Source: Bacteroidota bacterium
Lineage (GTDB): Bacteria; Bacteroidota; Ignavibacteria; Kryptoniales; JAKASW01
Direction: 5' to 3'
DNA length: 39,103 nucleotides
NCBI GenBank assembly: GCA_021794075.1
Contig: JAJYRM010000029.1
Coordinates: 1-39,103 of the forward strand
The notes under the pieces were generated by a model. The model was not told the origin of the DNA. It made no database searches and was given only the letters and a program-made list of their open reading frames with translations. The translations under genes were made by a program, and so were the position numbers. Positions 1,152 to 14,811 of the stretch are shown in pieces; position 1 is the first letter of the stretch; the number at the start of each line of letters is the position of its first letter.

Positions 1152-1889
1152 ATGGAACCAAATCTACAAAGCGGAAAGCAGGAAGAGCACGCCCCTTATT
1201 TCTTGAAATGGAGATGGTGGCGTCCACTATACTATTTGTACTTCGCCGGAATTGTTGCGGCGATGGTTTTTCTCTATAATGCGAGACAGAAGAATCAGGT
1301 TTCGGCGATCCAACCTGCCGTCGCCGCTGGTAATCACCCCGTCGTAGCAGCCAATTCGAGTCAAGCTTCGGTTGGAACGAGCGAAATTTCGGAACCAACT
1401 CAGGGGACTCACCGAAAAAAGGTATCGGCACCAGCCAAGAATGTTGAAGAGGCGAAGGAAGACAAAGAAGCGCCAAAGACTACGGCCCTCCCAGCATCCG
1501 ATGCCCAATTCGCGAGCCTAATTTCCCCTCCTGCTTCGATGATCGCTAAAGGGAAAGGCCTCTTTATGAATGACTGCGTCGCCTGCCACGGCGCGAACGG
1601 TGAAGGGGATGGCCCAGCTGCCGCGGCTCTCAAGCCGAAGCCCCGCAACTTCCATTCCGCTAAAGGATGGATAAACGGACGCATGGCATCAGGGATGTTC
1701 AAAACGTTGACCGATGGAATCCCCGGAAGTCCGATGCCCCCTTTCAGCTCTATATCAATTAAAGATAGACTCGCCATCATAAGCTACATCAGGTCATTCA
1801 AAGGATTTCCCAAGGAAACAAAAGCCGATGTTGAGACGCTCGCTAAAATGGTCGCTCAGTCGGGCAATTCTGCGGCTGGAGATGACTAG
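1152..1889 (+). CDS. Membrane-anchored cytochrome c (monoheme)
   Basis: The 245-residue protein starts with about 20 mostly hydrophilic residues, then one membrane helix (about 22-43). A long low-complexity linker rich in Ala, Lys and Glu (about 50-120) follows, then a class I cytochrome c domain. The heme site is CVACH at 142-146, and M195 in PGSPMPP is the likely axial methionine. The helix would place the heme domain in the periplasm on a flexible tether, suited to passing electrons between the bc complex and the oxidase. It leads a plus-strand group with SCO and the oxidase subunits. No strong Shine-Dalgarno sequence precedes the ATG. The family is clear; the exact electron partners are inferred from the neighbours. 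Confidence 0.85.
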   Translation: MEPNLQSGKQEEHAPYFLKWRWWRPLYYLYFAGIVAAMVFLYNARQKNQVSAIQPAVAAGNHPVVAANSSQASVGTSEISEPTQGTHRKKVSAPAKNVEEAKEDKEAPKTTALPASDAQFASLISPPASMIAKGKGLFMNDCVACHGANGEGDGPAAAALKPKPRNFHSAKGWINGRMASGMFKTLTDGIPGSPMPPFSSISIKDRLAIISYIRSFKGFPKETKADVETLAKMVAQSGNSAAGDD

Positions 1890-2025
1890 GCTTCTCATCG
1901 GCACATCACGCGTTGTGGGGAAGAGCTGATTCTCGTATGGTGATGATTCTTTTGACGAAACGATGAGCGATGACATACATAGTAAGAAAAGTAAGAAAGT
2001 AGGAATCCTTTTTGAGAGGACGAAG

Positions 2026-2835
2026 ATGACAAAGATTCTAAAAACAGTTTTGATACTTGCGGCGATCGGTTTCATTGTAAATCCGGCGAAGAGCCTGTTT
2101 GCCGAAGATGTCGGGCATCCGAACGTCGGAATTGTCCAGCAGCTCGGGAAGACAATTGATATGAATCTCACTTTTAAGGACGAGCAGGGCAACCCGATAA
2201 CGCTTGCTCAAATTTCGGACGGGAAACCGTTGATTATCGATCTCGGATATTATACTTGTCCCGGCATATGCGACAGGGTGTTCGGCGGTATACAGCAGGT
2301 AGTCGAGAAAATGAAAGACATGCCCGGCAAAGATTACAGGATAGCTACGATAAGTTTTGACCCGAACGACACTCCCAAGCGTGCTCGCCAGAAAAAGGAA
2401 GAGTACGTTAGGATGGCGAGGCGGCCAATCCCTGCCGACGCATGGAGGTTCCTTACCGGGGACAGCGTGACAATCCATAAGTTGACAAATGAAGTAGGTT
2501 TTTATTTTATGAGGGATGACCGTGATATGTTCACGCATCCCACGGCGCTCATCTTCGTGAGCAAAGAAGGGAAGATCGCGAGGTACATTTACGGGACGAC
2601 GTTCACACCCATCGATGTGCAGATGGCGATAATGGAGGCGGCGAACAATTCATTCGCGCCGATAATCGGAAGTGTGTTGAAGGTTTGTTTCAGCTACGAC
2701 GCTGCGGGCTCCGGATATTCTTTCGATGCTCTTTCAGTCGTAGGGTGGGGAACCACTATATTCATGCTCGCATTCATCATATTCCTTATGACGACAAAGC
2801 GACTCAAGAAAGCAAAGGCCAAGGGAGGAAATTGA
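2026..2835 (+). CDS. SCO1/SenC-type copper chaperone for cytochrome oxidase
   Basis: SCO proteins are thioredoxin-fold chaperones that help load copper into the CuA centre of oxidase subunit II. The copper-binding CPGIC is at residues 78-82 (DLGYYTCPGICD) and the third ligand is probably H171 in MFTHPTALIF. The N-terminus is a signal sequence or anchor (residues 5-26). Unusually, a second hydrophobic helix near the C-terminus (about 236-258) is followed by a Lys-rich tail, so the protein may be tied to the membrane at its end. The frame opens at 1963, but the ATG at 2026 has GAGAGGA five bases upstream and begins directly with the signal sequence, so it is preferred (269 residues). The stop lies 3 bases before coxA. 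Confidence 0.88.
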   Translation: MTKILKTVLILAAIGFIVNPAKSLFAEDVGHPNVGIVQQLGKTIDMNLTFKDEQGNPITLAQISDGKPLIIDLGYYTCPGICDRVFGGIQQVVEKMKDMPGKDYRIATISFDPNDTPKRARQKKEEYVRMARRPIPADAWRFLTGDSVTIHKLTNEVGFYFMRDDRDMFTHPTALIFVSKEGKIARYIYGTTFTPIDVQMAIMEAANNSFAPIIGSVLKVCFSYDAAGSGYSFDALSVVGWGTTIFMLAFIIFLMTTKRLKKAKAKGGN

Positions 2836-2838
2836 GAA

Positions 2839-4476
2839 ATGGCTGATATTGCATTACCCCCGCAGGACATTCCTGTCGTAGAGGGGAGTTACCTGGAGAA
2901 TACAGGAAAGCACAAGGGGCTGGCCGCCTGGCTCCTTTCGACAGATCATAAGCGAATAGGCATTATGTACATGATAATGCTGTTCAGCTTCTTTTCCGTC
3001 GGTGTCGTGCTCGGCATTCTGCTCCGTCTGGAAATGATCTCGCCGGGCGGCAAGCTTTTCCCGCCGCAAGTTTATAACGCGCTCTTCACACTTCACGGCG
3101 TTATAATGATTTTCCTGTTCGTCATCCCGGGCATCCCCGTGACGCTCGGCAATTTCTTCCTACCGCTTCAGATCGGCGCGAGGGATGTTGCTTTTCCAAG
3201 ACTGAACCTCTTCTCCTTCTACTTGTACATAATAGGAGCTGCGGTGATTTTGACGGCTCTGTTCGTAAACGGCCTTCCGGACACCGGCTGGACCTTCTAT
3301 GTACCATACAGCCTTAGGACGACCACAGGTGTAACGATAGCAGTCTTCGGCGTTTTCATCGTAGGTTTCTCGTCGATTCTCACCGGTATCAACTTTCTTA
3401 CAACTATACACCGCTTGAGGGCGCCCGGCATGACGTGGTTCAAAATGCCGCTTTTTGTTTGGGCGCTGTACGCTACCTCCTGGGTCCAGATTATTGCGAC
3501 GCCAGTTCTTGCTATTACGCTTCTGCTCATCGTAATTTCACGCGTTTTCGGAGTCGGTATTTTTAACGCCGCTGCTGGTGGCGATCCGGTCTTGTACCAG
3601 CATCTGTTTTGGATATATTCGCATCCAGCGGTGTACATAATGATTCTTCCGCCGATGGGCATAGTCTCAGAAATCATCGCCACATTTACCCGGAGGACGA
3701 TCTTTGGATATAAAGCTATCGCAATGTCCAGTCTGGCGATAGCCTTCATTGGCTACCTCGTTTGGGGTCATCACATGTTTGTGGCGGGAATGTCGCAGCA
3801 GGCGGACATGATTTTCTCTTTCCTGACGTTCCTCGTGGCGATTCCAAGCGGCATTAAGGTCTTTAACTGGGTTGCCTCCATGTACAAAGGGTCCATTGAC
3901 CCGCAACCTCCCTTCCTTTTTGTGATGGCATTCATGGTGCTCTTCTCGATAGGCGGACTCAGCGGGCTTGTCCTGGGAAGTCTCGCTACGGACGTCCATC
4001 TGACTGCCACATATTTTGTTGTGGCGCATTTCCATTACATAATATTCGGCGGCGGCGTCTTCATATTCTTCGGCGCGTTGCACTACTGGCTCCCTAAGAT
4101 GTTTGGGAGGATGTATGATAAGAAAATTGCGAGCTGGGATTTGCTCGTAATGTTCATTGGCTTCAACCTCCTTTATTTCCCGATGTTCATCATGGGATAT
4201 GAAGGGATGCCGCGAAGGTATTTTACTTACCTACCGCAGTTCGAGACTATGCAGCACATTTCGATAGTGGGTTCGTGGATCCTGGTTGCGGGCCTGATAG
4301 TTATGTTTGTCAACCTCATCCACGGTTCCATTAAAGGTCCGCGTGTTGGACCGAACCCTTGGGGAGGGACGACGCTCGAATGGAAGACGGCCTCTCCGCC
4401 GACACATGAGAATTTCGAAGAAGAACCAGTTGTCATACACGAGCCATATTATCATGAGGAGGCGTTAACACGTTGA
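2839..4476 (+). CDS. coxA: Cytochrome c oxidase subunit I, A2-type heme-copper oxidase
   Basis: This is the catalytic subunit that reduces O2 at the heme-copper centre and pumps protons. Ligands are visible: H86 (low-spin heme), H262, H311 and H312 (CuB), Y266 (His-Tyr cross-link, HPAVY), H397 (high-spin heme) and H399 (low-spin heme). D116 in RDVAFPRLN fits the D channel entry and K340 in SGIKVFNW the K channel. The glutamate found before the CuB histidine region in A1 enzymes is missing; instead Y260-S261 precede H262 (YSHPAV). That is the signature of A2 oxidases such as the Rhodothermus and Thermus caa3 types. At 545 residues it has the usual length. GGAGG lies nine bases before the ATG. 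The end overlaps coxC by 4 bases. Confidence 0.97.
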   Translation: MADIALPPQDIPVVEGSYLENTGKHKGLAAWLLSTDHKRIGIMYMIMLFSFFSVGVVLGILLRLEMISPGGKLFPPQVYNALFTLHGVIMIFLFVIPGIPVTLGNFFLPLQIGARDVAFPRLNLFSFYLYIIGAAVILTALFVNGLPDTGWTFYVPYSLRTTTGVTIAVFGVFIVGFSSILTGINFLTTIHRLRAPGMTWFKMPLFVWALYATSWVQIIATPVLAITLLLIVISRVFGVGIFNAAAGGDPVLYQHLFWIYSHPAVYIMILPPMGIVSEIIATFTRRTIFGYKAIAMSSLAIAFIGYLVWGHHMFVAGMSQQADMIFSFLTFLVAIPSGIKVFNWVASMYKGSIDPQPPFLFVMAFMVLFSIGGLSGLVLGSLATDVHLTATYFVVAHFHYIIFGGGVFIFFGALHYWLPKMFGRMYDKKIASWDLLVMFIGFNLLYFPMFIMGYEGMPRRYFTYLPQFETMQHISIVGSWILVAGLIVMFVNLIHGSIKGPRVGPNPWGGTTLEWKTASPPTHENFEEEPVVIHEPYYHEEALTR

Positions 4477-5117
4477 GCGAAATCTCTTTGCCTGAATCCG
4501 CAAAACATACCGGACACGCCGAACACCCGAAGAAGGATGTCCACGGAATAAAAATGGGGATGTGGCTTTTCCTCATGACTGAGCTCCTACTTTTCAGCGG
4601 GATGTTCCTTCTTTACTCCGCTTACAGATACTTTTACACAAAGGAGTTCCACGAGGCCGCAATGTATACACATACATTGTTCGGCACTGTCAACACTATG
4701 GTGTTACTCACAAGCAGTCTTACCATGGCGCTGTCGATCACCGCCCTCGAGAGAGGCAAGAAATGGCTCTCGGTCACGTTCCTTTCATCCACCATAGCGC
4801 TCGGTCTCGGATTCCTGGTGATCAAGTACGCCGAATGGTCGACCGAAATCCACGAAGGGATCTACCCGGGATCTCCGATGTTGTTCAAGCACCCTCGCGG
4901 CTTCGAACTTTTCTTCGCGATGTATTATTTGATGACCGGCCTCCACGGATTGCACGTACTGGTTGGGTGCGGATTACTTACCGTAATGTTGATCTTTATT
5001 GTGAAAGGGAAGATAACACAGGAAGACACGGTGAGACTGGAAGCCGCGGGACTTTACTGGCATCTGATCGACATCATTTGGATATTCTTGTTCCCACTAT
5101 TTTACCTGGTTAACTGA
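4473..5117 (+). CDS. coxC: Cytochrome c oxidase subunit III
   Basis: The 214-residue integral membrane protein belongs to the subunit III family, which supports turnover and stability of subunit I. About five helices are visible, with the typical WLFLMTELLLFSG near the start and a conserved histidine-rich helix (LHGLHVLVGC) later. The start is a TTG at 4473 that overlaps the coxA stop (TTGA). GAGGAGG lies about ten bases upstream, which supports this unusual start and suggests translational coupling. It is shorter than mitochondrial subunit III, as is usual for the five-helix bacterial form. Confidence 0.93.
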   Translation: MSEISLPESAKHTGHAEHPKKDVHGIKMGMWLFLMTELLLFSGMFLLYSAYRYFYTKEFHEAAMYTHTLFGTVNTMVLLTSSLTMALSITALERGKKWLSVTFLSSTIALGLGFLVIKYAEWSTEIHEGIYPGSPMLFKHPRGFELFFAMYYLMTGLHGLHVLVGCGLLTVMLIFIVKGKITQEDTVRLEAAGLYWHLIDIIWIFLFPLFYLVN

Positions 5118-5125
5118 CGGAGAGA

Positions 5126-5431
5126 ATGATGGAACAGCAGACTTTAACCGAACACAAGGGCGCGCCGACCAGCTACGGGATTTATGTCCTCATTTGGCTG
5201 GCTCTTATGGCGCTTACCGCGATAACTGCGGTGGTCGCAGGAATCAACCTGGCGGCTTTCACACTGGTCATAGCGTTAATTATAGCGTTGGTGAAGTCGT
5301 CGTTGGTGGTGAATGTCTTCATGCATGTCAAGTATGAGGATAAAATTTTCAAAATCTTCGTCGCGATAGCGGGAGGAGTGCTCAGCGTGATCTTCCTCCT
5401 TACATTTGCAGACGTTTATTTCAGACGATGA
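5126..5431 (+). CDS. Cytochrome c oxidase subunit IV (bacterial small subunit)
   Basis: This 101-residue protein has three hydrophobic segments (about 18-37, 41-63 and 74-97), with the pattern seen in the bacterial COX4 family: a polar N-terminus, a conserved Lys-Ser stretch (IIALVKSSLVVNVFMHVKYE) and a final helix. It is an accessory subunit of the oxidase. It starts 9 bases after coxC. Two ATG codons stand in tandem (5126 and 5129), and either may be used; GGAGAG is just upstream. Its end comes just before the preferred coxB start. Confidence 0.85.
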   Translation: MMEQQTLTEHKGAPTSYGIYVLIWLALMALTAITAVVAGINLAAFTLVIALIIALVKSSLVVNVFMHVKYEDKIFKIFVAIAGGVLSVIFLLTFADVYFRR

Positions 5432-5441
5432 GGCGCATGAA

Positions 5442-6098
5442 ATGAGATTATTGCCGTACGCACTGAACCACGCACAGGCTGTTGATGATGTTATGAGATT
5501 CATAGTAATCTCGAGCATCATCCTCTTTCTGATAGTAATTGTCACTATGGTTGTATTTGTCTTCAAATACAACCATAAGAGAAATCCAAGAGCGACAAGC
5601 ATACCGGGAAACGTACCTCTCGAGATATTTTGGACAGTTGTACCTACGGTGCTCGTGCTAGCGATGTTCTACGTGGGTTGGGAAGCTTACCTGCAGATAC
5701 GGACCGTACCCAAGAATGCAATGCCCGTGAAGGTCTTTGCTCGCCAGTGGAGTTTCTCTTTCGAGTATATGAACGGAAAGCGTACCGATACCCTTTACGT
5801 TCCAAAGGGAAGACCGATAGATTGCCTGATCAAGTCGCTCGACGTAATTCATAGTTTTTATCTTCCCGCTTTCAGGGAAAAGCAGGACGCGCTCCCCGAC
5901 AGGGTCCGCCATATGGTGGTGATTCCCGAGCATCTTGGCATCTTTGACGTGGTCTGCACTCAGTATTGCGGACTTGACCACGCGCTAATGAAAACCAAGA
6001 TGATCGTTCTCCCTGATACCACATTCGACAGATGGATAAACTCCAGCAGCACAGCCGAACCCAAAGTGGCGCTAGGTGATTCGACGATATATTTCTGA
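5442..6098 (+). CDS. coxB: Cytochrome c oxidase subunit II (CuA subunit)
   Basis: Subunit II takes electrons from cytochrome c through CuA. Two N-terminal helices (about 18-43 and 62-84) are followed by a periplasmic cupredoxin domain. CuA ligands are H137 (DVIHSFYLP), C172, C176 (CTQYC), H180 and M183. The aromatic patch RQWSFSFEY (101-109) matches the electron entry region. No fused cytochrome c follows, so this is an aa3-type rather than caa3-type subunit; separate cytochromes must deliver electrons. The frame opens at 5406 inside coxD, but the ATG at 5442 has a GAGG eight bases upstream and starts at the usual distance from helix 1, giving 218 residues. The position after coxA, C and D, rather than before coxA, is uncommon. 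Confidence 0.95.
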   Translation: MRLLPYALNHAQAVDDVMRFIVISSIILFLIVIVTMVVFVFKYNHKRNPRATSIPGNVPLEIFWTVVPTVLVLAMFYVGWEAYLQIRTVPKNAMPVKVFARQWSFSFEYMNGKRTDTLYVPKGRPIDCLIKSLDVIHSFYLPAFREKQDALPDRVRHMVVIPEHLGIFDVVCTQYCGLDHALMKTKMIVLPDTTFDRWINSSSTAEPKVALGDSTIYF

Positions 6099-6166: not shown

Positions 6167-7174
6167 ATGGAAAATAATAAAGTTAATGACAATCGGATGA
6201 CCGGAATTCGACATGACCTGTCCTCGGCGAGGGTAGGAAGAGAGGGCTCTGCAGCGCTTAGTTTTCCGGCAACGGGACGCCTCGACCACGTCAGGGAAAT
6301 CACGAACGCTGTCGCAGAACTTGTGAAGATCAAGATCACTTTCTTTGTCGGCATGTCAGCGCTCTTTGGTTTTGTTCTAGCGTCTGGCGCTATTTCCTTC
6401 AAGATGGTCGCGTCTTCTTTCGGGATCTTTCTGGTTGCCAGCGGTTCCGCTGTGCTTAATCACTACCAAGAGCGGGAGAGCGACGCGCTGATGCACCGCA
6501 CGCAGAGACGCCCGTTACCGTCGGGCACAATCGCCCCCGGATCGGCCCTCTTTCTTCTCATCGGCCTGGTTGTTTTGGGGTCTGTCGTGACTTTCGTATG
6601 GGGAAATCTCGAGGCTCTTGTGCTGTCATTGCTTGCGATGGTGTGGTACAACGCTATTTATACTCCGCTTAAGAAAAAGACGGCATACGCGGTTATTCCC
6701 GGCTCGTTTGTCGGTTCGCTTCCGGTGATGGCGGGTTGGGCAGCGGCAGGCGGGAGTCTCGCGGATCCCAAGCTACTCGTCGTTTCGATGTATTTTTTCG
6801 TCTGGCAGATCCCTCATTTCTGGTTGTTGATGGACATATACAGCAGTGACTATGAGAGGGCTGGTTTCCCGACGATGCGAAGACATTTGTCCGAAAAGAA
6901 GTTTGCCGTCGGCACGTATGTATGGATGCTTGCTCTTGTGGCGATTTCGCTGTTTTTCCCCGTGACGGGAGTCGTTGAAGGAATGGTGGGGGGAGCTCTT
7001 CTGATTGGTCTCGGAGCATGGCTAAGTATCGCGACGTGGTCGATAGTAAAACACTACGGCGACAAACGGGCATACAAATCTGCTTTCATGAAAATTAACA
7101 TTTACGTACTTGCCGTCACGGTCTTGGTTCTAGTTGATATACTTTTCAAAATGATCTCACCATGGAGGCTTTAG
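6167..7174 (+). CDS. ctaB: Protoheme IX farnesyltransferase (heme O synthase)
   Basis: CtaB adds a farnesyl chain to heme B to make heme O, the step before heme A. The protein belongs to the UbiA prenyltransferase superfamily and has about eight to nine helices. The first prenyl-diphosphate motif is at about 98-120 (NHYQERESDALM, then RTQRRPLPSG). Later features are WYNAIYTPLKKKT and PHFWLLMDIYSSDYERAGFP. The first 45 residues are polar and variable, so translation could start at a later codon such as 6197. No heme A synthase (CtaA) gene is seen in this window. It follows coxB by 68 bases in the same direction, which fits an oxidase biogenesis operon. Confidence 0.93.
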   Translation: MENNKVNDNRMTGIRHDLSSARVGREGSAALSFPATGRLDHVREITNAVAELVKIKITFFVGMSALFGFVLASGAISFKMVASSFGIFLVASGSAVLNHYQERESDALMHRTQRRPLPSGTIAPGSALFLLIGLVVLGSVVTFVWGNLEALVLSLLAMVWYNAIYTPLKKKTAYAVIPGSFVGSLPVMAGWAAAGGSLADPKLLVVSMYFFVWQIPHFWLLMDIYSSDYERAGFPTMRRHLSEKKFAVGTYVWMLALVAISLFFPVTGVVEGMVGGALLIGLGAWLSIATWSIVKHYGDKRAYKSAFMKINIYVLAVTVLVLVDILFKMISPWRL

Positions 7175-7178
7175 CCAG

Positions 7179-8567
7179 ATGCATTTCTTAAACAACCTTG
7201 TGAATCCCGAATCGGGTGAACGCCTTACACTCCTTTACTATTTGTTGTCTTTCGTGTCGACAATGTTCGTCACTTACATCGGAATAGCCGCGACGGGCTC
7301 CACGCTTTCGCTCTTCTTCAATCGTAAAGGGTTGAAGAAGGGGAATGACATCTACCGTCACTTTGCCAGAAATCTCATCGATGTGGCTTTGCCTGGCAAA
7401 GGTGTCGTCGCGGCTCTGGCCGGACTTCCGATCGTGACGATCATTCTTATCTACGCGGAGCTTCTGTATAACACGAACGCAGATGTCACGAATTTCATGA
7501 CAGCTTCAGCGATTCTCGTCATCAGTGGCTTCATGTTCCTTATCGCTTACAGGTACAGCTTCAGGCTTGAAGGATTTGTCGAATCGTATAAGAAGCTTAC
7601 ACCATCCCAGAAATCTGAAATCGGAGACGCGAGCCTTGTCGACTTGGACGCGATGGAGATATCGGCCCATCAGACAAGGCGCCGGGCAGGCCTGTTCGGT
7701 ACGGCGATGCTTTGGATCGGGATGTGGGTGTTTATGGGCGGTTCTAATCTTGCGCTTAACAGCCAGGCCTGGCCGCAGGATGCAGGCACGTTTGCAGTGC
7801 TTTTCTCGTGGACTACAATTTGGAGTTTTATCCACTTCATAACTGCAGCTGTAGTTATCGAAAGTGCCGCTATCCTGTTCTTTTTCTATATTTGGGATGG
7901 CGGAGTGGGCGCCGCGAACAATGAAGCCTACTCGTCGTTCGTGAAGCGGTTTGCGATGAATGCCGGCCTCCTTTTCGCGATTGTGCAGCCTCTGATCATC
8001 TTCATCGATCTAACACTGGTCCCTTCCGCCGCGAAAGACGGTGCTGTATTCGGTCTCGCAGGCCTCGGGTTGCTAATTGCTTTTGTACTCGTGCATTTCT
8101 TCTATCGGATGCTCAGGCTGCGTAAGGTTTACCTCGGCAGCTTTGCCTTCATAGGTGTGGTAGTGATGGTCGGAGTATGGATGACCGCGAAGGGCGTTTC
8201 GTTCAGCAAATCTAATCAGGCTCATTATCAGCTGATGGCTGATAATTATGACAAGATGCTTTCAGAGCTCCCCGAAGTGCAGACGGCCAAGATCAGCGGT
8301 GAGAAGATATTCACGCAGACCTGCAGCGCTTGTCATAGGTTCCATAACAGATTAGTCGGGCCCGCCTACAACATGGTGCTAGGCGGTTACGAAGGAAAGA
8401 TGAGCAAGCTGGAAGATTTCATTATGAATCCGCGGCAAGTCCTGCAAGGTTACCCGCCGATGCCTAAACAGGGGCTTAATCAGGCTCAGGTAAAAGCGGT
8501 TGCCGAATATATCATGAACGTCTACCAGACGGAAGAGAAGAACGGCACGGCCACCTACACGAAGTAA
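7179..8567 (+). CDS. Polytopic membrane protein with C-terminal cytochrome c domain
   Basis: The 462-residue protein has about eight membrane helices (roughly 18-45, 76-97, 106-126, 171-192, 205-238, 259-281, 289-309 and 318-336). A cytochrome c domain follows, with CSACH at 382-386 and a likely methionine ligand M428 in YPPMPKQ. The membrane part is not a family I can name with confidence. The helix around E228 (VIESAAILFFFYIWD) resembles the conserved glutamate helix of cytochrome bd subunit I, and H219 and H306 also lie in helices, so it might bind heme. It starts 4 bases after ctaB, with GGAGG ten bases before the ATG, so it is probably made with the oxidase. It is not CtaA: the typical histidine motifs are absent. 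Confidence 0.75.
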   Translation: MHFLNNLVNPESGERLTLLYYLLSFVSTMFVTYIGIAATGSTLSLFFNRKGLKKGNDIYRHFARNLIDVALPGKGVVAALAGLPIVTIILIYAELLYNTNADVTNFMTASAILVISGFMFLIAYRYSFRLEGFVESYKKLTPSQKSEIGDASLVDLDAMEISAHQTRRRAGLFGTAMLWIGMWVFMGGSNLALNSQAWPQDAGTFAVLFSWTTIWSFIHFITAAVVIESAAILFFFYIWDGGVGAANNEAYSSFVKRFAMNAGLLFAIVQPLIIFIDLTLVPSAAKDGAVFGLAGLGLLIAFVLVHFFYRMLRLRKVYLGSFAFIGVVVMVGVWMTAKGVSFSKSNQAHYQLMADNYDKMLSELPEVQTAKISGEKIFTQTCSACHRFHNRLVGPAYNMVLGGYEGKMSKLEDFIMNPRQVLQGYPPMPKQGLNQAQVKAVAEYIMNVYQTEEKNGTATYTK

Positions 8568-9070: not shown

Positions 9071-11101
9071 TTATTTCTTCTCAGCTTCGGATGATGCTGT
9101 AGTCTTTCCTTGCGTGGAGACCAACCTCATCGTTCCGAGAATTAGCCAGAGGAGTATGAATATTCCGAGTGCCAGGAAGAAGAAGGTCTTCGGGGCTATA
9201 CCCGGGTGCAGAATCTTGGCTCGGTTGACGCCGTTCAGACTCATGATGTAAGCTATGATATTGGAAATCTCCTGCTGAGTAAGAGACTGTGTCTTACCAT
9301 AGCCGACCATGCTCATGGGAGCCATTGCCTTCTGTGGGCTGGGTCCCGGAGGCGCCGCGCCGTTTTCGATGAAGCGGTCTAGATTGTCCGCAAATACTGC
9401 CGGATCCTTGCTGAACAATTCGGGCCGGACAGGGTCAAGCGCCGGAATTGTACCAAGGTAGGAACCGGGGTTTGCGACGCCGCCTTTGCCCGCCATTCCA
9501 TGACAGCTCGCGCAGTTGGCATCGAACAGCTTCTTACCATGTCCGACATTGCCTACCATACTCGCTGCGAGCCCCGGCTCGCCAACTTGAGAGGGAAGCT
9601 GGATAACCCTGACGTTTGGCGGCGGAGTCTGAGGAGTATGAGAAGCGACGGACGTGGAGGGAGCTGCGGCCGGAGCAGCCGTGCTCCGAAGGCTCGTCAA
9701 ATAATCAACAAGCTCGCCGACCTGTACGTTGCTCAACATCGTAAACGGAGGCATGACCGTTTTCGGATCATGTGATTTCGGATTGCGAATTTGGGTCGTC
9801 AGCCAGGCAGCGGAATGGGCTTTGAGTCCTTCTCCTGAAAGGTCCGGTCCAACATGTCCGCCCACGCCATTGACGGTGTGGCAGGCAGTGCATCCCATCG
9901 TCGCGAAGACTTGCGCTCCTTTTGTGGCTCCTGACTTCTGAGCAGGCGATAACGGAGGGAGTTCAGGTTGTTTGGCCGAGACGGTCTCGACAGTTGCGGC
10001 TTTTCCAGGTTTAGCCGATGCGGTGGCTACCGATCCGCCGTTTTGCTTCGCGCCAGGATGGCTATAATATCCGGTAATCGTCAGTGTCGTTATTCCACCG
10101 GCAATGATGAATCCAATCAGCATCGCGATGGGACGTTTACGAGGATTTCGTTCGGGGTTCTTATCAACGAAGGGGAGCAAAAAGAAGAAAGCGAAAAGAG
10201 CTGTCGGGATACCGATTGTGCCGACTGGTTCCCATGGGCCCTGAAAAGCTTTGATAGCCTGATACAGGAAGAGGAAATTCCATTCCGGCTTCGGTTGAAA
10301 AGTGGTGTCGATAGCATCGGCTGGGCCGGAGAATGGTGGCGCGAAGAACGCGGCGAGACCAATCAGGATAAGAAGTATTATAGTGAATACGAAAGCGTCT
10401 TTAAAGACCTGGTCAGGCCAGAACGCGCCGATACGTTTTCTCTTAGATTCGTTCCACGGACCGACGCTTCCTTTCTTTCGGAAAGCTACCAAGTGGAGAG
10501 CGATGAACGCAAGAAGAATCGCGGGGATGATGGCCACGTGAAGTATGAAAAAGCGCGACAGCGTCAGCTGTCCCATCTGCGCTCCGCCGCGAAGTAGGTC
10601 AACTGCTACATTACCGAGAAATGGGGTGGTTCCGGCAATACTGGTACCGACTTCGGAGGCCCAGTATCCTGTCTCATCCCATGGAAGTGCCGCTCCGGTG
10701 AAGCTCATTGCCATTGTGAAGAGGAGAAGGAGCACTCCCAAGAGCCACGTAAGCTCGCGAGGCTTCTTGTAACCTCCCCAGATGTATACTCGAGAAAGGT
10801 GAACGGCGACTAGGACAATCATTGCCGTCGCTCCCCAGAAATGAAGTCCGTGAATCAACCAACCGAAGGGAACGTTCAACCGCAGGTAAGACAGCGACTG
10901 GTAAGCGTGATCGGTCGTCGGAACATAGTAAAATATTTGCCAAATACCAGTGACAATTTGAAGTAGAAAAAGAAATAATGTGGCACTTCCAAAGACGTAC
11001 GCGTAACTGGCACCACCGGGTATTTCTTCCTCAGTGGCAGCCTTCCATACCTCTTTTACAGGCCATCGATCGTTAATCCATTCTTGTACATTTGAAAGCA
11101 T
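9071..11101 (-). CDS. Single-chain menaquinol:cytochrome c reductase cytochrome b with two fused cytochrome c domains
   Basis: This 676-residue protein joins parts that are separate chains in most bc complexes. Residues 1-210 are cytochrome b6-like, with heme ligands H87/H101 and H188/H203. The spacings are 13 and 14 residues; the 14-residue gap in the second pair is the b6 type. Residues 228-345 match subunit IV, with P272-E273-W274-N275 in place of PEWY at the quinol site. Two cytochrome c domains follow, CTACH at 404-408 and CASCH at 530-534, joined by an Ala/Pro linker, then a final helix (about 639-660). It would oxidise quinol and pass electrons through its own hemes. GGAGGAGA precedes the ATG. 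The Rieske gene is 14 bases upstream. Confidence 0.93.
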   Translation of the reverse strand: MLSNVQEWINDRWPVKEVWKAATEEEIPGGASYAYVFGSATLFLFLLQIVTGIWQIFYYVPTTDHAYQSLSYLRLNVPFGWLIHGLHFWGATAMIVLVAVHLSRVYIWGGYKKPRELTWLLGVLLLLFTMAMSFTGAALPWDETGYWASEVGTSIAGTTPFLGNVAVDLLRGGAQMGQLTLSRFFILHVAIIPAILLAFIALHLVAFRKKGSVGPWNESKRKRIGAFWPDQVFKDAFVFTIILLILIGLAAFFAPPFSGPADAIDTTFQPKPEWNFLFLYQAIKAFQGPWEPVGTIGIPTALFAFFFLLPFVDKNPERNPRKRPIAMLIGFIIAGGITTLTITGYYSHPGAKQNGGSVATASAKPGKAATVETVSAKQPELPPLSPAQKSGATKGAQVFATMGCTACHTVNGVGGHVGPDLSGEGLKAHSAAWLTTQIRNPKSHDPKTVMPPFTMLSNVQVGELVDYLTSLRSTAAPAAAPSTSVASHTPQTPPPNVRVIQLPSQVGEPGLAASMVGNVGHGKKLFDANCASCHGMAGKGGVANPGSYLGTIPALDPVRPELFSKDPAVFADNLDRFIENGAAPPGPSPQKAMAPMSMVGYGKTQSLTQQEISNIIAYIMSLNGVNRAKILHPGIAPKTFFFLALGIFILLWLILGTMRLVSTQGKTTASSEAEKK

Positions 11102-11115
11102 CTGCAGTTCTCCTC

Positions 11116-11652
11116 CTATACGACTATCTTCTTAGGAACGCCCAGTTTGAATCGTTCCCATTTAACGTACAATTCGCCGTCCTGTATTTTCGTTGGGAGA
11201 GTGTCCAGCGGGCGCGGGGCCGGACCGTGCAGAACTTTCCCGTCCTTGGCAAAGACACTGCCGTGACACGGACATATGAACTCCTCGCGCTCCGGGTGCC
11301 AGTTGTATCGGCAACCAAGGTGAGGGCAAATGGGTGAAAACACTGTCACTTCGTTATCACCGTTCTTGAGCGCCCATACATCGCGTCTTTCCACCTCTTC
11401 GATGTAAGCATCTCTGTCGCGCTCATCGAAAAACACTTTTTGTGGATTACCGCTTGAAATCGAGGAGACCGGACCTGCGTTAACAAACTTGCCGATCTTG
11501 ATTCTTAAAGATTGACTGACTAGAGCATCCAGAAAGGGAACCGCAAGTATGAGCGTTGCGAATCCCCCGATCACTCCCGTGCCGATTTTCAAGAAAGATC
11601 TTCGAGACGGGTCGTGCTGTTCCGGAATTTTGGGTTCTTCTGATTTTTCCAT
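11116..11652 (-). CDS. Rieske iron-sulfur protein of the bc complex
   Basis: The 178-residue protein holds the [2Fe-2S] cluster that takes the first electron from quinol. Box I is CPHLGC (C109, H111, C114) and box II is CPCHGS (C127, C129, H130). C109, H111, C127 and H130 would bind the cluster, and C114-C129 would form the disulfide. A twin-arginine motif (RRSFLK at 17-22) before a hydrophobic helix (about 24-45) indicates Tat export with a retained anchor. AAGGAAGG lies just upstream of the ATG. It is the first gene of a two-gene operon with the fused cytochrome b. No separate cytochrome c1 gene is present, consistent with the fusion. Confidence 0.95.
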   Translation of the reverse strand: MEKSEEPKIPEQHDPSRRSFLKIGTGVIGGFATLILAVPFLDALVSQSLRIKIGKFVNAGPVSSISSGNPQKVFFDERDRDAYIEEVERRDVWALKNGDNEVTVFSPICPHLGCRYNWHPEREEFICPCHGSVFAKDGKVLHGPAPRPLDTLPTKIQDGELYVKWERFKLGVPKKIVV

Positions 11653-12451
11653 AACCCTTCCTTAGGATTTGTTTCAGACTAGAATTAGAAACCGTTGGGC
11701 CTGTAGCGTTTGTTCTTCCACCGCAACGGTCGTCCGATGGTTCATTGTCTATTTTGACGATCCGAATTGTTCTCTATGCACGGAACTCCGATGAAGCGGA
11801 ACCCATTGGATAGAGGACTAGGTAGTGTCAACGTCAGTTCCTTTTGTGGTGCTTTCAGTTGCTTGTCAAATATTAAGGGAGACCTGACGTTTGCAGGCGC
11901 TTCCTTCGGATCTTTGATTGGGATCTGTGGCGACAGGAAGTTTACTCAACTAACCGTGTCGTCTGAAATGACATTGGAGACGAGGTTATTTTCTTGCCAA
12001 GTAGTAGTGATGATAAGCCGATATTGCCTTCTTCAAAGATTTCATAAAGGCGCCTATCTGTTTTTTTGCTTATCTCAGTTCTACCGGAGTCTCCTCTCCG
12101 ACAATATCACTCCTCACACCAATATTTAATCATTTAGAGCCAATTAAACAACACCCGACTGCGTCAAAATCAACCAAGGCGCTCGCAATCGGTCTAAGAT
12201 AGTGTAGGTTCTTTGAGACCGAAGACTTTTGGCAAAAGAATACTGCTGTGATGGCTGCCAACGATGGGATATGAGAGTTTGAATTTGCTTATTCGCTAAA
12301 TCGAATCAGCGAGCCGGTGGCTATCTTTCTTGGTGAATGATCGTAGAGAGTTAAGCTTGTTAAGCTAACGTGGACCTTCTCTGCTTCGTGTATTCCTGTT
12401 GCCAACCTATGCAGCTCTTCGGGGGCAAATAGTCGCGTCCGCCCCAAACTC
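11653..12451. other. Gene-poor stretch upstream of the Rieske and Cyc2-like genes
   Basis: About 800 bases between divergent transcription units. The plus-strand frame 11767-12129 (120 codons) has no recognisable domain, is rich in Ser, Cys and Phe, lacks a ribosome site and does not look like its neighbours. The area probably holds control sequences for both directions; I could not pick out a convincing minus-strand promoter for the Rieske gene. Confidence 0.45.
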
Positions 12452-12641: not shown

Positions 12642-12665
12642 ACAAACTAAGCAGGAGGAGTACGA

Positions 12666-14042
12666 ATGATAAGTGCTTCAACAAAAACAAGGACCAGTTC
12701 AATGTTTCAAACTTTTGGGAAAAGAATGGCCCTCATCATAGTGGGGGCTTTAACGTTCGTGGTGTTAAATGGAAATGCGTACGCCATTCCAAGTTATGCC
12801 CGCCAAACCGGGCTGGCTTGCAGTTCGTGTCACTATTCCTTTCCGGAATTGACGCCCTTCGGAAGGAACTTCAAGCTGAACGGATACACGATGGTGGGAC
12901 GCCAGACAATAGATGCGAAGGCGAAGGGAGATCAGGGTGCGCTGAAACTTCTCAGGAACTTCCTGATGTCCGCGATGGTGCAGGCCTCTTACAATAACGT
13001 GGCCAAGCCGGTTCCGGGGACTAAGACGGGCAATATGGAATTCCCTCAGCAGCTCAGCCTTTTCCTCGGCGGTGAGATTACTCCTCACATCGGAGCTTTC
13101 ACTCAGATCACTTACGACGACCAGGGCGCGTCCTTCGGTTGGGACAACACCGATATCCGTTATTCCAACCAGGGACTGATTGGTGATAACCCGATCACTT
13201 ACGGATTAACACTCAACAATAACCCGACGGTCGAGGATCTCTGGAACAGCACCCCGGCGTGGGGTTATCCGTATGCTTCTTCGAGCAGCGCGCCAACTCC
13301 AGGTGCCAGCACCCTGATTGATGGCGCCTTTGGAGGCAACGTTGCCGGCCTTGGAGCTTTCGCCATGTACGATAATCTGATTTACGCCAACCTGACCGGT
13401 TATAAGTCGGCTCCGCAGGGTGGATCATTTCCGCCGGATGCCAATGCCAACTTCACTATAAGCGGAGTGACCCCTTACTGGAGAGTCGCTCTTCAAAAGC
13501 AAATCTCCGATACTTATGTGGAGATCGGCACGTATGGCTTGTCGGCGAATATCTACCCGAGTGGAATAAGCGGAGCGACTGACAACTACACCGATGTCGC
13601 CTTCGATTTCCAGGTTGAGCATGCTCTCGGCAAGAATGAGATGATATTTCATTCGACCTGGATACACGAAAACCAGGACCTCAAGGCAACCTACGCTGCC
13701 GGAGGTTCGGCGAATTCCACGAATAGTCTGAGTACCTTCAGGATCGACGGATCGTATATGTTCTGCGACGGTCTTGATGTGATGGCCCAATACTTCAACA
13801 CGTACGGTTCCGCCGACGGCGGTCTGTACTCTCCCGCTTCAGTAACAGGAAGCCTGACGGGAAGTCCGAACAGCAGCGGCGTAATCGCGGAGTTTGATTT
13901 CAGCCCGTGGCAAAACACGAGACTCGGCCTTCAGTATGTGATGTACACCAAGTTCAATGGCGGCAGCACGAATTATGACGGCTCGGGCAGGGACGCGGCG
14001 AACAATAACACGCTTTACGTTTCGACGTGGATAGTGCTGTAA
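12666..14042 (+). CDS. Outer-membrane porin-cytochrome fusion (Cyc2-like)
   Basis: The 458-residue protein has a long signal peptide (basic start, hydrophobic 21-35, likely cut after A40). A short heme segment follows at once, PSYARQTGLACSSCH (CSSCH at 52-56), then FPELTPFGRNFKLNGY. The rest is rich in alternating aromatic, Gly, Ser and Asn residues typical of an outer-membrane beta barrel. One heme at the N-terminus of a barrel is the layout of Cyc2, the outer-membrane iron oxidase of several Fe(II)-oxidising bacteria including some Chlorobium. Related cytochrome-barrel proteins of unknown role exist, so iron oxidation is inference. AGGAGG lies seven bases before the ATG. The last residue is Leu rather than the usual Phe. 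A promoter and a roughly 180-base leader precede it. Confidence 0.7.
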   Translation: MISASTKTRTSSMFQTFGKRMALIIVGALTFVVLNGNAYAIPSYARQTGLACSSCHYSFPELTPFGRNFKLNGYTMVGRQTIDAKAKGDQGALKLLRNFLMSAMVQASYNNVAKPVPGTKTGNMEFPQQLSLFLGGEITPHIGAFTQITYDDQGASFGWDNTDIRYSNQGLIGDNPITYGLTLNNNPTVEDLWNSTPAWGYPYASSSSAPTPGASTLIDGAFGGNVAGLGAFAMYDNLIYANLTGYKSAPQGGSFPPDANANFTISGVTPYWRVALQKQISDTYVEIGTYGLSANIYPSGISGATDNYTDVAFDFQVEHALGKNEMIFHSTWIHENQDLKATYAAGGSANSTNSLSTFRIDGSYMFCDGLDVMAQYFNTYGSADGGLYSPASVTGSLTGSPNSSGVIAEFDFSPWQNTRLGLQYVMYTKFNGGSTNYDGSGRDAANNNTLYVSTWIVL

Positions 14043-14083: not shown

Positions 14084-14114
14084 CGGCCGGGATTTTTGAA
14101 AGAGATCCCGGCCG
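14084..14114 (+). terminator. Strong stem-loop after the porin-cytochrome gene
   Basis: CGGCCGGGAT (14084-14093) pairs perfectly with ATCCCGGCCG (14105-14114) around an 11-base loop, 42 bases after the stop codon. Only a weak T stretch follows, so it may terminate or protect the 3' end. Confidence 0.6.
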
Positions 14115-14305: not shown

Positions 14306-14350
14306 ATGGCGCTGCTTAAAGTACTATTAAATTGGAGAATAACCAGATGA
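14306..14350 (+). CDS. 14-residue leader ORF coupled to the cytochrome c gene
   Basis: An ATG at 14306 follows a very strong purine-rich ribosome site (GGGAGGAGGAGG, 14291-14302). It encodes MALLKVLLNWRITR, and its stop TGA (14348-14350) overlaps the next ATG (14347) as ATGA. Ribosomes loading here would end exactly at the cytochrome start, so the small frame could couple or boost its translation. The peptide itself resembles nothing known to me. The best ribosome site in the area serves this frame rather than the cytochrome, which argues that it is translated. Confidence 0.5.
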   Translation: MALLKVLLNWRITR

Positions 14351-14811
14351 AACGATTCGCGCTTCTTGCTTTTGTTCTGTCAATAGGAGTCGCTGTCTAC
14401 ACGAGTCCGGCAAGTCTTTCCGCTGCCCAAAAGTCCGCAAAAACCGCGGGAGACAAGAAGTCTGCTGTCGATACTAAACAGGACAAGGGGATAGGTCCGA
14501 TCAAATCAGTGACACTTGGTCCGATTAACGAGGAGCTTGTTGAAAAGGGGAAGTCGCAGTTCGAGGAAAAGTGCATGTCCTGTCATCAGCTCGATTCGAG
14601 ACTTGTGGGGCCACCTCTCGAATATTCAACTAAAGATTACTCGCCCGAATTCATAATGAATATGATACTGAACAGCACGGTGATGGAATCTAAAGACCCT
14701 GTCGCGAAGGCGCTGCTCGACAAGTATCATGTTCCAATGATAGTCCCCGGTGTTTCGAAAGAGCAGGCAAGGGAAATTCTCGAGTTCCTGCGCAGCAAGG
14801 CCCCCAAGTAA
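14347..14811 (+). CDS. Small periplasmic cytochrome c (monoheme)
   Basis: The 154-residue protein has a cleavable signal peptide (hydrophobic 4-18, likely cut after the SLSA stretch near residue 26). A Lys-rich spacer follows, then a class I cytochrome c domain. The heme site is CMSCH at 76-80 and M131 in HVPMIVPG is the probable axial ligand. A soluble carrier of this kind could link the porin-cytochrome or the bc complex to the CuA subunit. The frame can be extended to a TTG at 14332. However, the ATG at 14347 has GGAG nine bases upstream, starts with a proper signal peptide and overlaps the leader ORF stop as ATGA, so it is preferred. Confidence 0.88.
   Translation: MKRFALLAFVLSIGVAVYTSPASLSAAQKSAKTAGDKKSAVDTKQDKGIGPIKSVTLGPINEELVEKGKSQFEEKCMSCHQLDSRLVGPPLEYSTKDYSPEFIMNMILNSTVMESKDPVAKALLDKYHVPMIVPGVSKEQAREILEFLRSKAPK

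Follow-up and report, generated by a model that had tools for sequence, protein, structure and literature searches.

A predicted Cyc2-type cytochrome-porin of the acidophile branch beside a second bc complex in a Bacteroidota genome

Cyc2 is a marker gene for bacterial iron oxidation, and most of its homologues are found in organisms without known iron metabolism. What is at stake at a locus of this kind is whether an organism with Cyc2 oxidises iron, reduces it or does both, and with it the right reading of the marker in metagenome surveys. The window, by which we mean the whole stretch of 39,103 nucleotides analysed, contains a gene whose product, P0001, had been described in a preliminary description as Cyc2-like, with a signal peptide, a single CSSCH about 12 residues into the mature protein and a barrel-like remainder. 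Is P0001 a Cyc2, to which kind does it belong, and in which direction would electrons pass through it? The gene and its product have the following features.

12653 to 12658, forward strand: ribosome-binding site AGGAGG, 7 nt 5' of the ATG (sequence)
12666 to 14042, forward strand: Cyc2-type fused cytochrome-porin, 458 aa (open reading frame, 68-sequence alignment, AlphaFold2 fold, tree)
12666 to 12785, forward strand: signal peptide region, residues 1-40, ending in AYA, with cleavage at AYA/IPS (by eye)
12783 to 12809, forward strand: Cyc2 consensus AXPXFAR[QK][TY], present as AIPSYARQT with Y for F (motif of PMC8406198)
12819 to 12833, forward strand: CSSCH, the sole CXXCH and heme c attachment site, residues 52-56 (sequence)
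12843 to 12851, forward strand: PXL motif as PEL, residues 60-62 (sequence, alignment)
12966 to 14036, forward strand: predicted 16-strand beta-barrel, residues 101-457 (AlphaFold2, Foldseek porin matches)
14084 to 14114, forward strand: 14-pair hairpin 3' of the Cyc2-type gene, terminator-like or marking an mRNA end

The signal peptide, judged by eye and predicted to contain a helix at residues 11-35 in the AlphaFold2 model, and the position of the heme motif were both confirmed: C52 is about the twelfth residue past the cleavage site, in a mature N-terminal stretch that reads IPSYARQTGLACSSCHYSFPELTPFGRNFKLNGYT. In the published Cyc2 consensus, AXPXFAR[QK][TY] precedes CXXCH and PXL follows it (PMC8406198). 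Across 68 aligned homologues R46, Q47, T48, C52, C55, H56, P60 and L62 occur without exception, so the heme motif of P0001 is not due to chance. The Tyr in place of Phe recurs in 22 of these sequences, with RQT invariant throughout, and some Cluster 1 proteins have it as well. The published strict filter PXFAR would miss P0001, and through this F-to-Y change a part of the Cyc2 family is lost under a strict motif filter.

The barrel was likewise supported by structure prediction. The AlphaFold2 model (pLDDT 87.2, pTM 0.83) has 16 long strands, with pLDDT mostly above 90 in the barrel and about 66-90 in the N-terminal heme region. Foldseek searches with this model gave general porins (OmpT, OmpU, OmpF) as the top matches, with E values down to 5e-10, and sequence searches against Pfam, NCBIfam and PDB assigned P0001 to no family. 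Its 458 residues and 16 strands agree with the size expected of Cyc2, at least 365 residues and a 16-strand barrel. The heme would be covalently attached and the protein would reside in the outer membrane. Could P0001 instead be an ordinary porin, in which the heme segment has decayed or is structural and has no respiratory role? The barrel sequence is highly divergent among the homologues and no second axial His or Met is conserved in them beyond the CXXCH, as such a porin would allow. However, all 68 homologues, which come from several phyla, keep the heme motif, and genes for a c-type cytochrome, a bc complex or an oxidase (cox) are recurrent neighbours, which makes this explanation very improbable.

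The rus operon is an established Fe(II) oxidation pathway. References for its branch were the Cyc2 proteins of three rus operons (L197, L215 and L217), gathered by a search for rusticyanin and then with a profile built from P0001 relatives; A. ferrooxidans Cyc2 itself was outside this set. The gene order in L215 is cyc2, diheme c, cup, coxB, coxA, coxC, ctaB and rusticyanin, and that of L217 is alike; the L197 labels Cup, CoxB, CoxC, CoxD and CtaA were given from order and appearance according to PMC10654088, without HMM matches of their own. P0001 aligned with the three rus-operon proteins from end to end (E 1e-69 to 3e-88; 34% identity), whereas only 110-140 N-terminal residues could be aligned with the Chlorobiaceae-like and Burkholderiales Cluster 1 proteins. 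The same pattern of likeness is described between the Cyc2 proteins of A. ferrooxidans and Mariprofundus (PMC5566968). The tree placed P0001 in one clade with the Cyc2s of the rus operons (99/100) and set the Cluster 1 clade (100/100) and a FARKY-type group (100/98) apart from it. We infer that the reference group f31 is Chlorobiaceae and that its sequences represent Cluster 1. A topology joining the Bacteroidota/Ignavibacteriota set with Cluster 1 was rejected (p-AU 0.037), and Chlorobium-type membership of P0001 is ruled out by tree and alignment together. Given full-length homology to the rus-operon proteins and N-terminal likeness only to Cluster 1, P0001 is predicted from sequence and model to be a Cyc2-family fused cytochrome-porin of the rus-operon acidophile branch (A. 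ferrooxidans, Cluster 2), not of the Chlorobium kind. The Cyc2-like identity first proposed is thus backed by motif, fold, full-length homology and tree; a position outside all Cyc2 clusters and a fold without a barrel were looked for, and neither was seen. The analogy with Chlorobium that came with it has to be dropped, as the Chlorobium type belongs to the separate Cluster 1 and the genome is not that of a Chlorobium.

P0001 shares with the rus-operon Cyc2 the single N-terminal heme, the 16-strand barrel and the closeness of cytochrome c and oxidase genes. The rus operon, in contrast, has rusticyanin and Cup genes, neither of which was found among the window reading frames searched with Pfam, and its oxidase is of another subfamily, the window CoxI being about 31-35% identical to rus-operon CoxI. 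The P0001 locus differs further in its adjoining paralogous bc complex and its Bacteroidota/Ignavibacteriota host. Cluster 1 proteins (Mariprofundus, Gallionellaceae, Chlorobium) are also fused monoheme cytochrome-porins with a like motif around the CXXCH. The FARKY-type Cyc2-like proteins of the same phylum have an N-terminal AxPxFARKY..CxxCH and a remainder of barrel length, but are shorter than P0001 (about 390 aa). MtoAB, PioAB and MtrAB are electron conduits through the outer membrane as well, built from a multiheme cytochrome in a separate, larger barrel, whereas P0001 has one heme in one chain.

Which partners would such a protein have? The genes around it include the following.

1152 to 1889, forward strand: membrane-anchored monoheme cytochrome c (Pfam 5e-16)
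1963 to 2835, forward strand: SCO1/SenC-like oxidase assembly protein (Pfam 5e-10)
2839 to 6098, forward strand: heme-copper oxidase subunits I, III, IV and II (Pfam COX1, COX3, COX4_pro, COX2; TIGR02891 1e-198)
6167 to 7174, forward strand: heme O synthase (CtaB) homologue of the UbiA type (TIGR01473 1e-53, below the curated cut-off)
7179 to 8567, forward strand: membrane protein with a C-terminal cytochrome c domain, adjoining the oxidase genes (Pfam; conserved in L056-L058)
9071 to 11101, reverse strand: cytochrome b fused to a cytochrome c region with two CXXCH (Pfam)
11116 to 11652, reverse strand: Rieske iron-sulfur protein of the bc complex (Pfam 1e-11, linkage conserved)
14332 to 14811, forward strand: periplasmic monoheme cytochrome c, the probable electron partner (Pfam Cytochrom_C 4e-8)

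The small cytochrome c and the bc complex had been named as neighbours from the start, and Pfam bears out both. For the cytochrome c the ATG at 14347 is the likelier start. Its homologues adjoin the Cyc2-type gene throughout the genus, and a small c-type cytochrome reading frame lies within 1.5 kb of the Cyc2-type gene in 18 of 22 Bacteroidota/Ignavibacteriota/Chlorobiota loci. A c-type cytochrome is also found directly 3' of plasmid homologues in Caballeronia, A. ferrooxidans, Acidiphilium, Polymorphobacter, Methylocystis and Ideonella; these plasmid-borne partners are not close relatives of the window cytochrome. The reading frame at 11767-12129 was discarded as spurious, with no homologue in the sister species.

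The CuA residues of subunit II, read by eye, mark the oxidase as a cytochrome c oxidase. G000, the host genome (4.5 Mb, 99.8% complete), G006, G009 and G012 each have a single A-type oxidase, encoded at a distance of 8.1-8.4 kb from the Cyc2-type gene. No match to heme A synthase (COX15/CtaA) was obtained in G000 with searches that matched in control genomes, so that of the aa3 oxidase originally proposed the COX1/2/3/4 and CuA assignment stands and the heme type is putative; the conserved linkage to bc complex and oxidase is real. The lack of COX15/CtaA beside CtaB and a CuA oxidase would mean that the enzyme is divergent or that the oxidase works without heme A. The protein at 7179-8567 has many helices and a cytochrome c domain related to the small cytochrome at 14332; modelled as a candidate for the missing heme A synthase, it reached a pLDDT of 41 in AlphaFold2.

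The Cyc2-type gene, the cytochrome c and the linked oxidase provide the parts of a path from an extracellular donor through cytochrome c to O2. In the mechanism that we put forward, the heme-bearing N-terminal segment and the 16-strand barrel would pass single electrons between a small dissolved extracellular partner and the periplasm. Fe(II) would donate to the Cyc2-type barrel, which would reduce the monoheme cytochrome c (14332-14811), and this in turn would feed the CuA-type oxidase (2839-6098) and O2. The second bc complex would connect this cytochrome pool with the quinones by electron exchange, and act either as an uphill branch or as one shared in respiration. The contacts between the partners, Fe(II) as the donor and the inward direction are all presumptive, and we give the explanation as a whole, a Cluster 2 Cyc2 conduit from Fe(II) to the oxidase with bc exchange with quinones, an even chance. 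Inward flow is favoured since the Cyc2 proteins tested so far oxidise Fe(II) (PMC8406198) and the oxidase lies within the conserved cluster. RuBisCO was found in no member of the genus, which makes the need for an uphill bc branch less evident; of the complete donor-to-O2 path originally envisaged, the parts and their conserved linkage are nevertheless present. Iron oxidation by the host is plausible, and the host, an uncultured bacterium, appears from sequence and model to be a good candidate for electron exchange with dissolved iron.

The bc genes bear directly on the direction of flow. They lie upstream of the Cyc2-type gene and are divergent from it. A further cytochrome b is encoded on contig C231 of the host genome, and this, with the cytochrome b tree, makes the window complex a paralogous second one. 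In that tree, in which the program flagged long branches, the window copy fell into a group (100/99) with the Cyc2-adjoining copies of an Ignavibacteriales MAG and of G006, G009, G012 and G002. With weaker support (94/88), this group was joined by copies directly behind a Cyc2-type gene in Acidobacteriota, including Acidipila rosea; the remaining cytochrome b paralogs of the genus were placed elsewhere. G002 has a plain operon of Cyc2, c, Rieske and cytochrome b-c. At a second G002 copy and at L060 and L061, the Cyc2-c pair is followed instead by a QrcB-like protein of the molybdopterin family; on contigs that extend far enough, genes for a 4Fe-4S and an NrfD protein come next. Similar Qrc-like arrangements stand behind the Cyc2-type gene in the Acidobacteriota loci L091, L092 and L102, and at L226 (1310-7146) a Qrc/NrfD-like complex of molybdopterin-family, 4Fe-4S, NrfD and multi-CXXCH cytochrome proteins is behind a Cyc2-type pair. 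Among non-redundant loci, 15 of 48 had a bc or NrfD complex in the 3.5 kb downstream of the Cyc2-type gene, against 3 of 39 on the upstream side (p 0.006, without correction for relatedness). Besides the rus-operon Cyc2, the branch of P0001 includes copies from numerous acid-soil and mine bacteria, some of these copies being tied to a second bc or Qrc-like complex.

In searches of the open-licence literature we found no Cyc2 operon with a bc or Qrc complex described for the phylum of P0001 and related phyla. Cyc2 homologues have been reported in Ignavibacteriales, by FeGenie (PMC8478452), and in Ignavibacteriaceae (PMC6344600), so their mere presence in this phylum is not new. What appears to be new is the adjoining paralogous bc complex with a cytochrome b of a Cyc2-linked clade, and the recurrence of bc/Qrc linkage in Acidobacteriota and Ignavibacteriota. 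We propose tentatively, at somewhat less than an even chance, that a Cyc2-type barrel, a cytochrome c and a dedicated quinone:cytochrome c oxidoreductase (bc or Qrc-like NrfD) form an inherited module of Ignavibacteriota/Bacteroidota and Acidobacteriota, through which heterotrophs would pass electrons between dissolved extracellular iron and their quinones, either reversibly or chiefly in the outward direction. If this is true, an inherited iron-quinone module is carried by heterotrophs outside the recognised iron bacteria.

A quinone-coupled module suits outward flow at least as well as inward flow. Electrons would then pass from quinol through the linked bc complex (in relatives, the Qrc-like one) and cytochrome c to the barrel, with Fe(III) or some other solute as the final acceptor, and a heterotroph would gain an outlet under anaerobic or microaerobic conditions. 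This is a strong rival, because it is hard to see what an Fe(II) oxidiser without RuBisCO would gain from a quinone-coupled complex. Outward flow is in line with the linkage of Cyc2-type genes to such complexes in several phyla, with the Fe(III) reducers among the Acidobacteriaceae and Acidiphilium that carry such genes, and with the proposal of Cyc2 as terminal ferric reductase in A. ferrooxidans (PMC8790237). The oxidase inside the same conserved cluster and the Fe(II) oxidation measured to date for Cyc2 argue against it, as do two other multiheme clusters of the host genome that could serve extracellular electron transfer, and we consider a mainly outward flow the less likely of the two. 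Both directions could also occur in one organism. The two clusters encode large multiheme cytochromes, with 20 and 24 CXXCH at L224 (11590-16727, contig C148) and with 14 and 18 at L223 (7660-14859, contig C169); their long reading frames without heme motifs may encode barrels, making them candidate porin-cytochrome systems.

Where the relatives of P0001 live bears on whether iron is the partner in the conduit to which we give preference. The nearest named relatives (74-89% identity in P0001) are the Bacteroidetes MAGs SKS5.bin54, MAS4.bin38 and FK_Sedi_B_Bin.45. MAS and FK are site codes for the Maanshan and Fankou mine-drainage sediments (PMC7779479), so acid mine drainage is a likely habitat. 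Within its clade P0001 is placed among proteins of Bacteroidota and Ignavibacteriota, those of Gemmatimonadota, Acidobacteriota and Proteobacteria being close by, and the majority of its subclade comes from Acidobacteriota, Gemmatimonadota, Bacteroidota and others without known iron oxidation. Reduced humics, Mn(II) or a partner cell could be the donor or acceptor of the same conduit. A close homologue occurs in Melioribacter MnB_16, which we take to come from a Mn(II)-oxidising enrichment. Cyc2 is also among the candidates for Mn(II) lithotrophy (PMC9040806), and homologues of P0001 are found in soil, lichen and marine taxa. The mine-drainage origin of the closest relatives and the rus-operon homology point to iron, however, and a small barrel with one heme is suited to ions in solution, so that a partner other than iron seems improbable.

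Of the 13 genomes of the genus, 11 have the full-length Cyc2-type gene. G005 and G007 are without the P0001-type Cyc2 and also without the long fused cytochrome b. The stem of the hairpin at 14084-14114 is kept in three sister species (L056, L057 and L058), and the hairpin, which stands between the transcript of the Cyc2-type gene and the cytochrome c gene, may separate the two. Neither a sigma-54 promoter search nor a promoter scan gave results above chance. At the loci L202 (1015-5550), L226 (9540-14047), L060 and L061 of relatives, a sensor kinase (Cache/HAMP/PAS), a sigma-54 response regulator and a single receiver precede the Cyc2-type gene, which suggests regulated expression at these loci; the window has no such regulators. 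A Cyc2-type gene and a cytochrome c are also carried on plasmids of A. ferrooxidans YQ-N3 and Acidiphilium cryptum JF-5 (L051, L052), with matching coordinates and neighbours and an adjoining transposase, a sign of recent transfer between acidophile classes. Many genomes of family f31 have between one and three Cyc2-like loci, which is more than would be expected from the small number of Chlorobium known to oxidise iron. Elsewhere in the host genome, L225 (2553-3638, contig C113) encodes a short, distant Cyc2-like protein of 362 aa, LPRFAMMTGMECANCH, next to a protein with two CXXCH.
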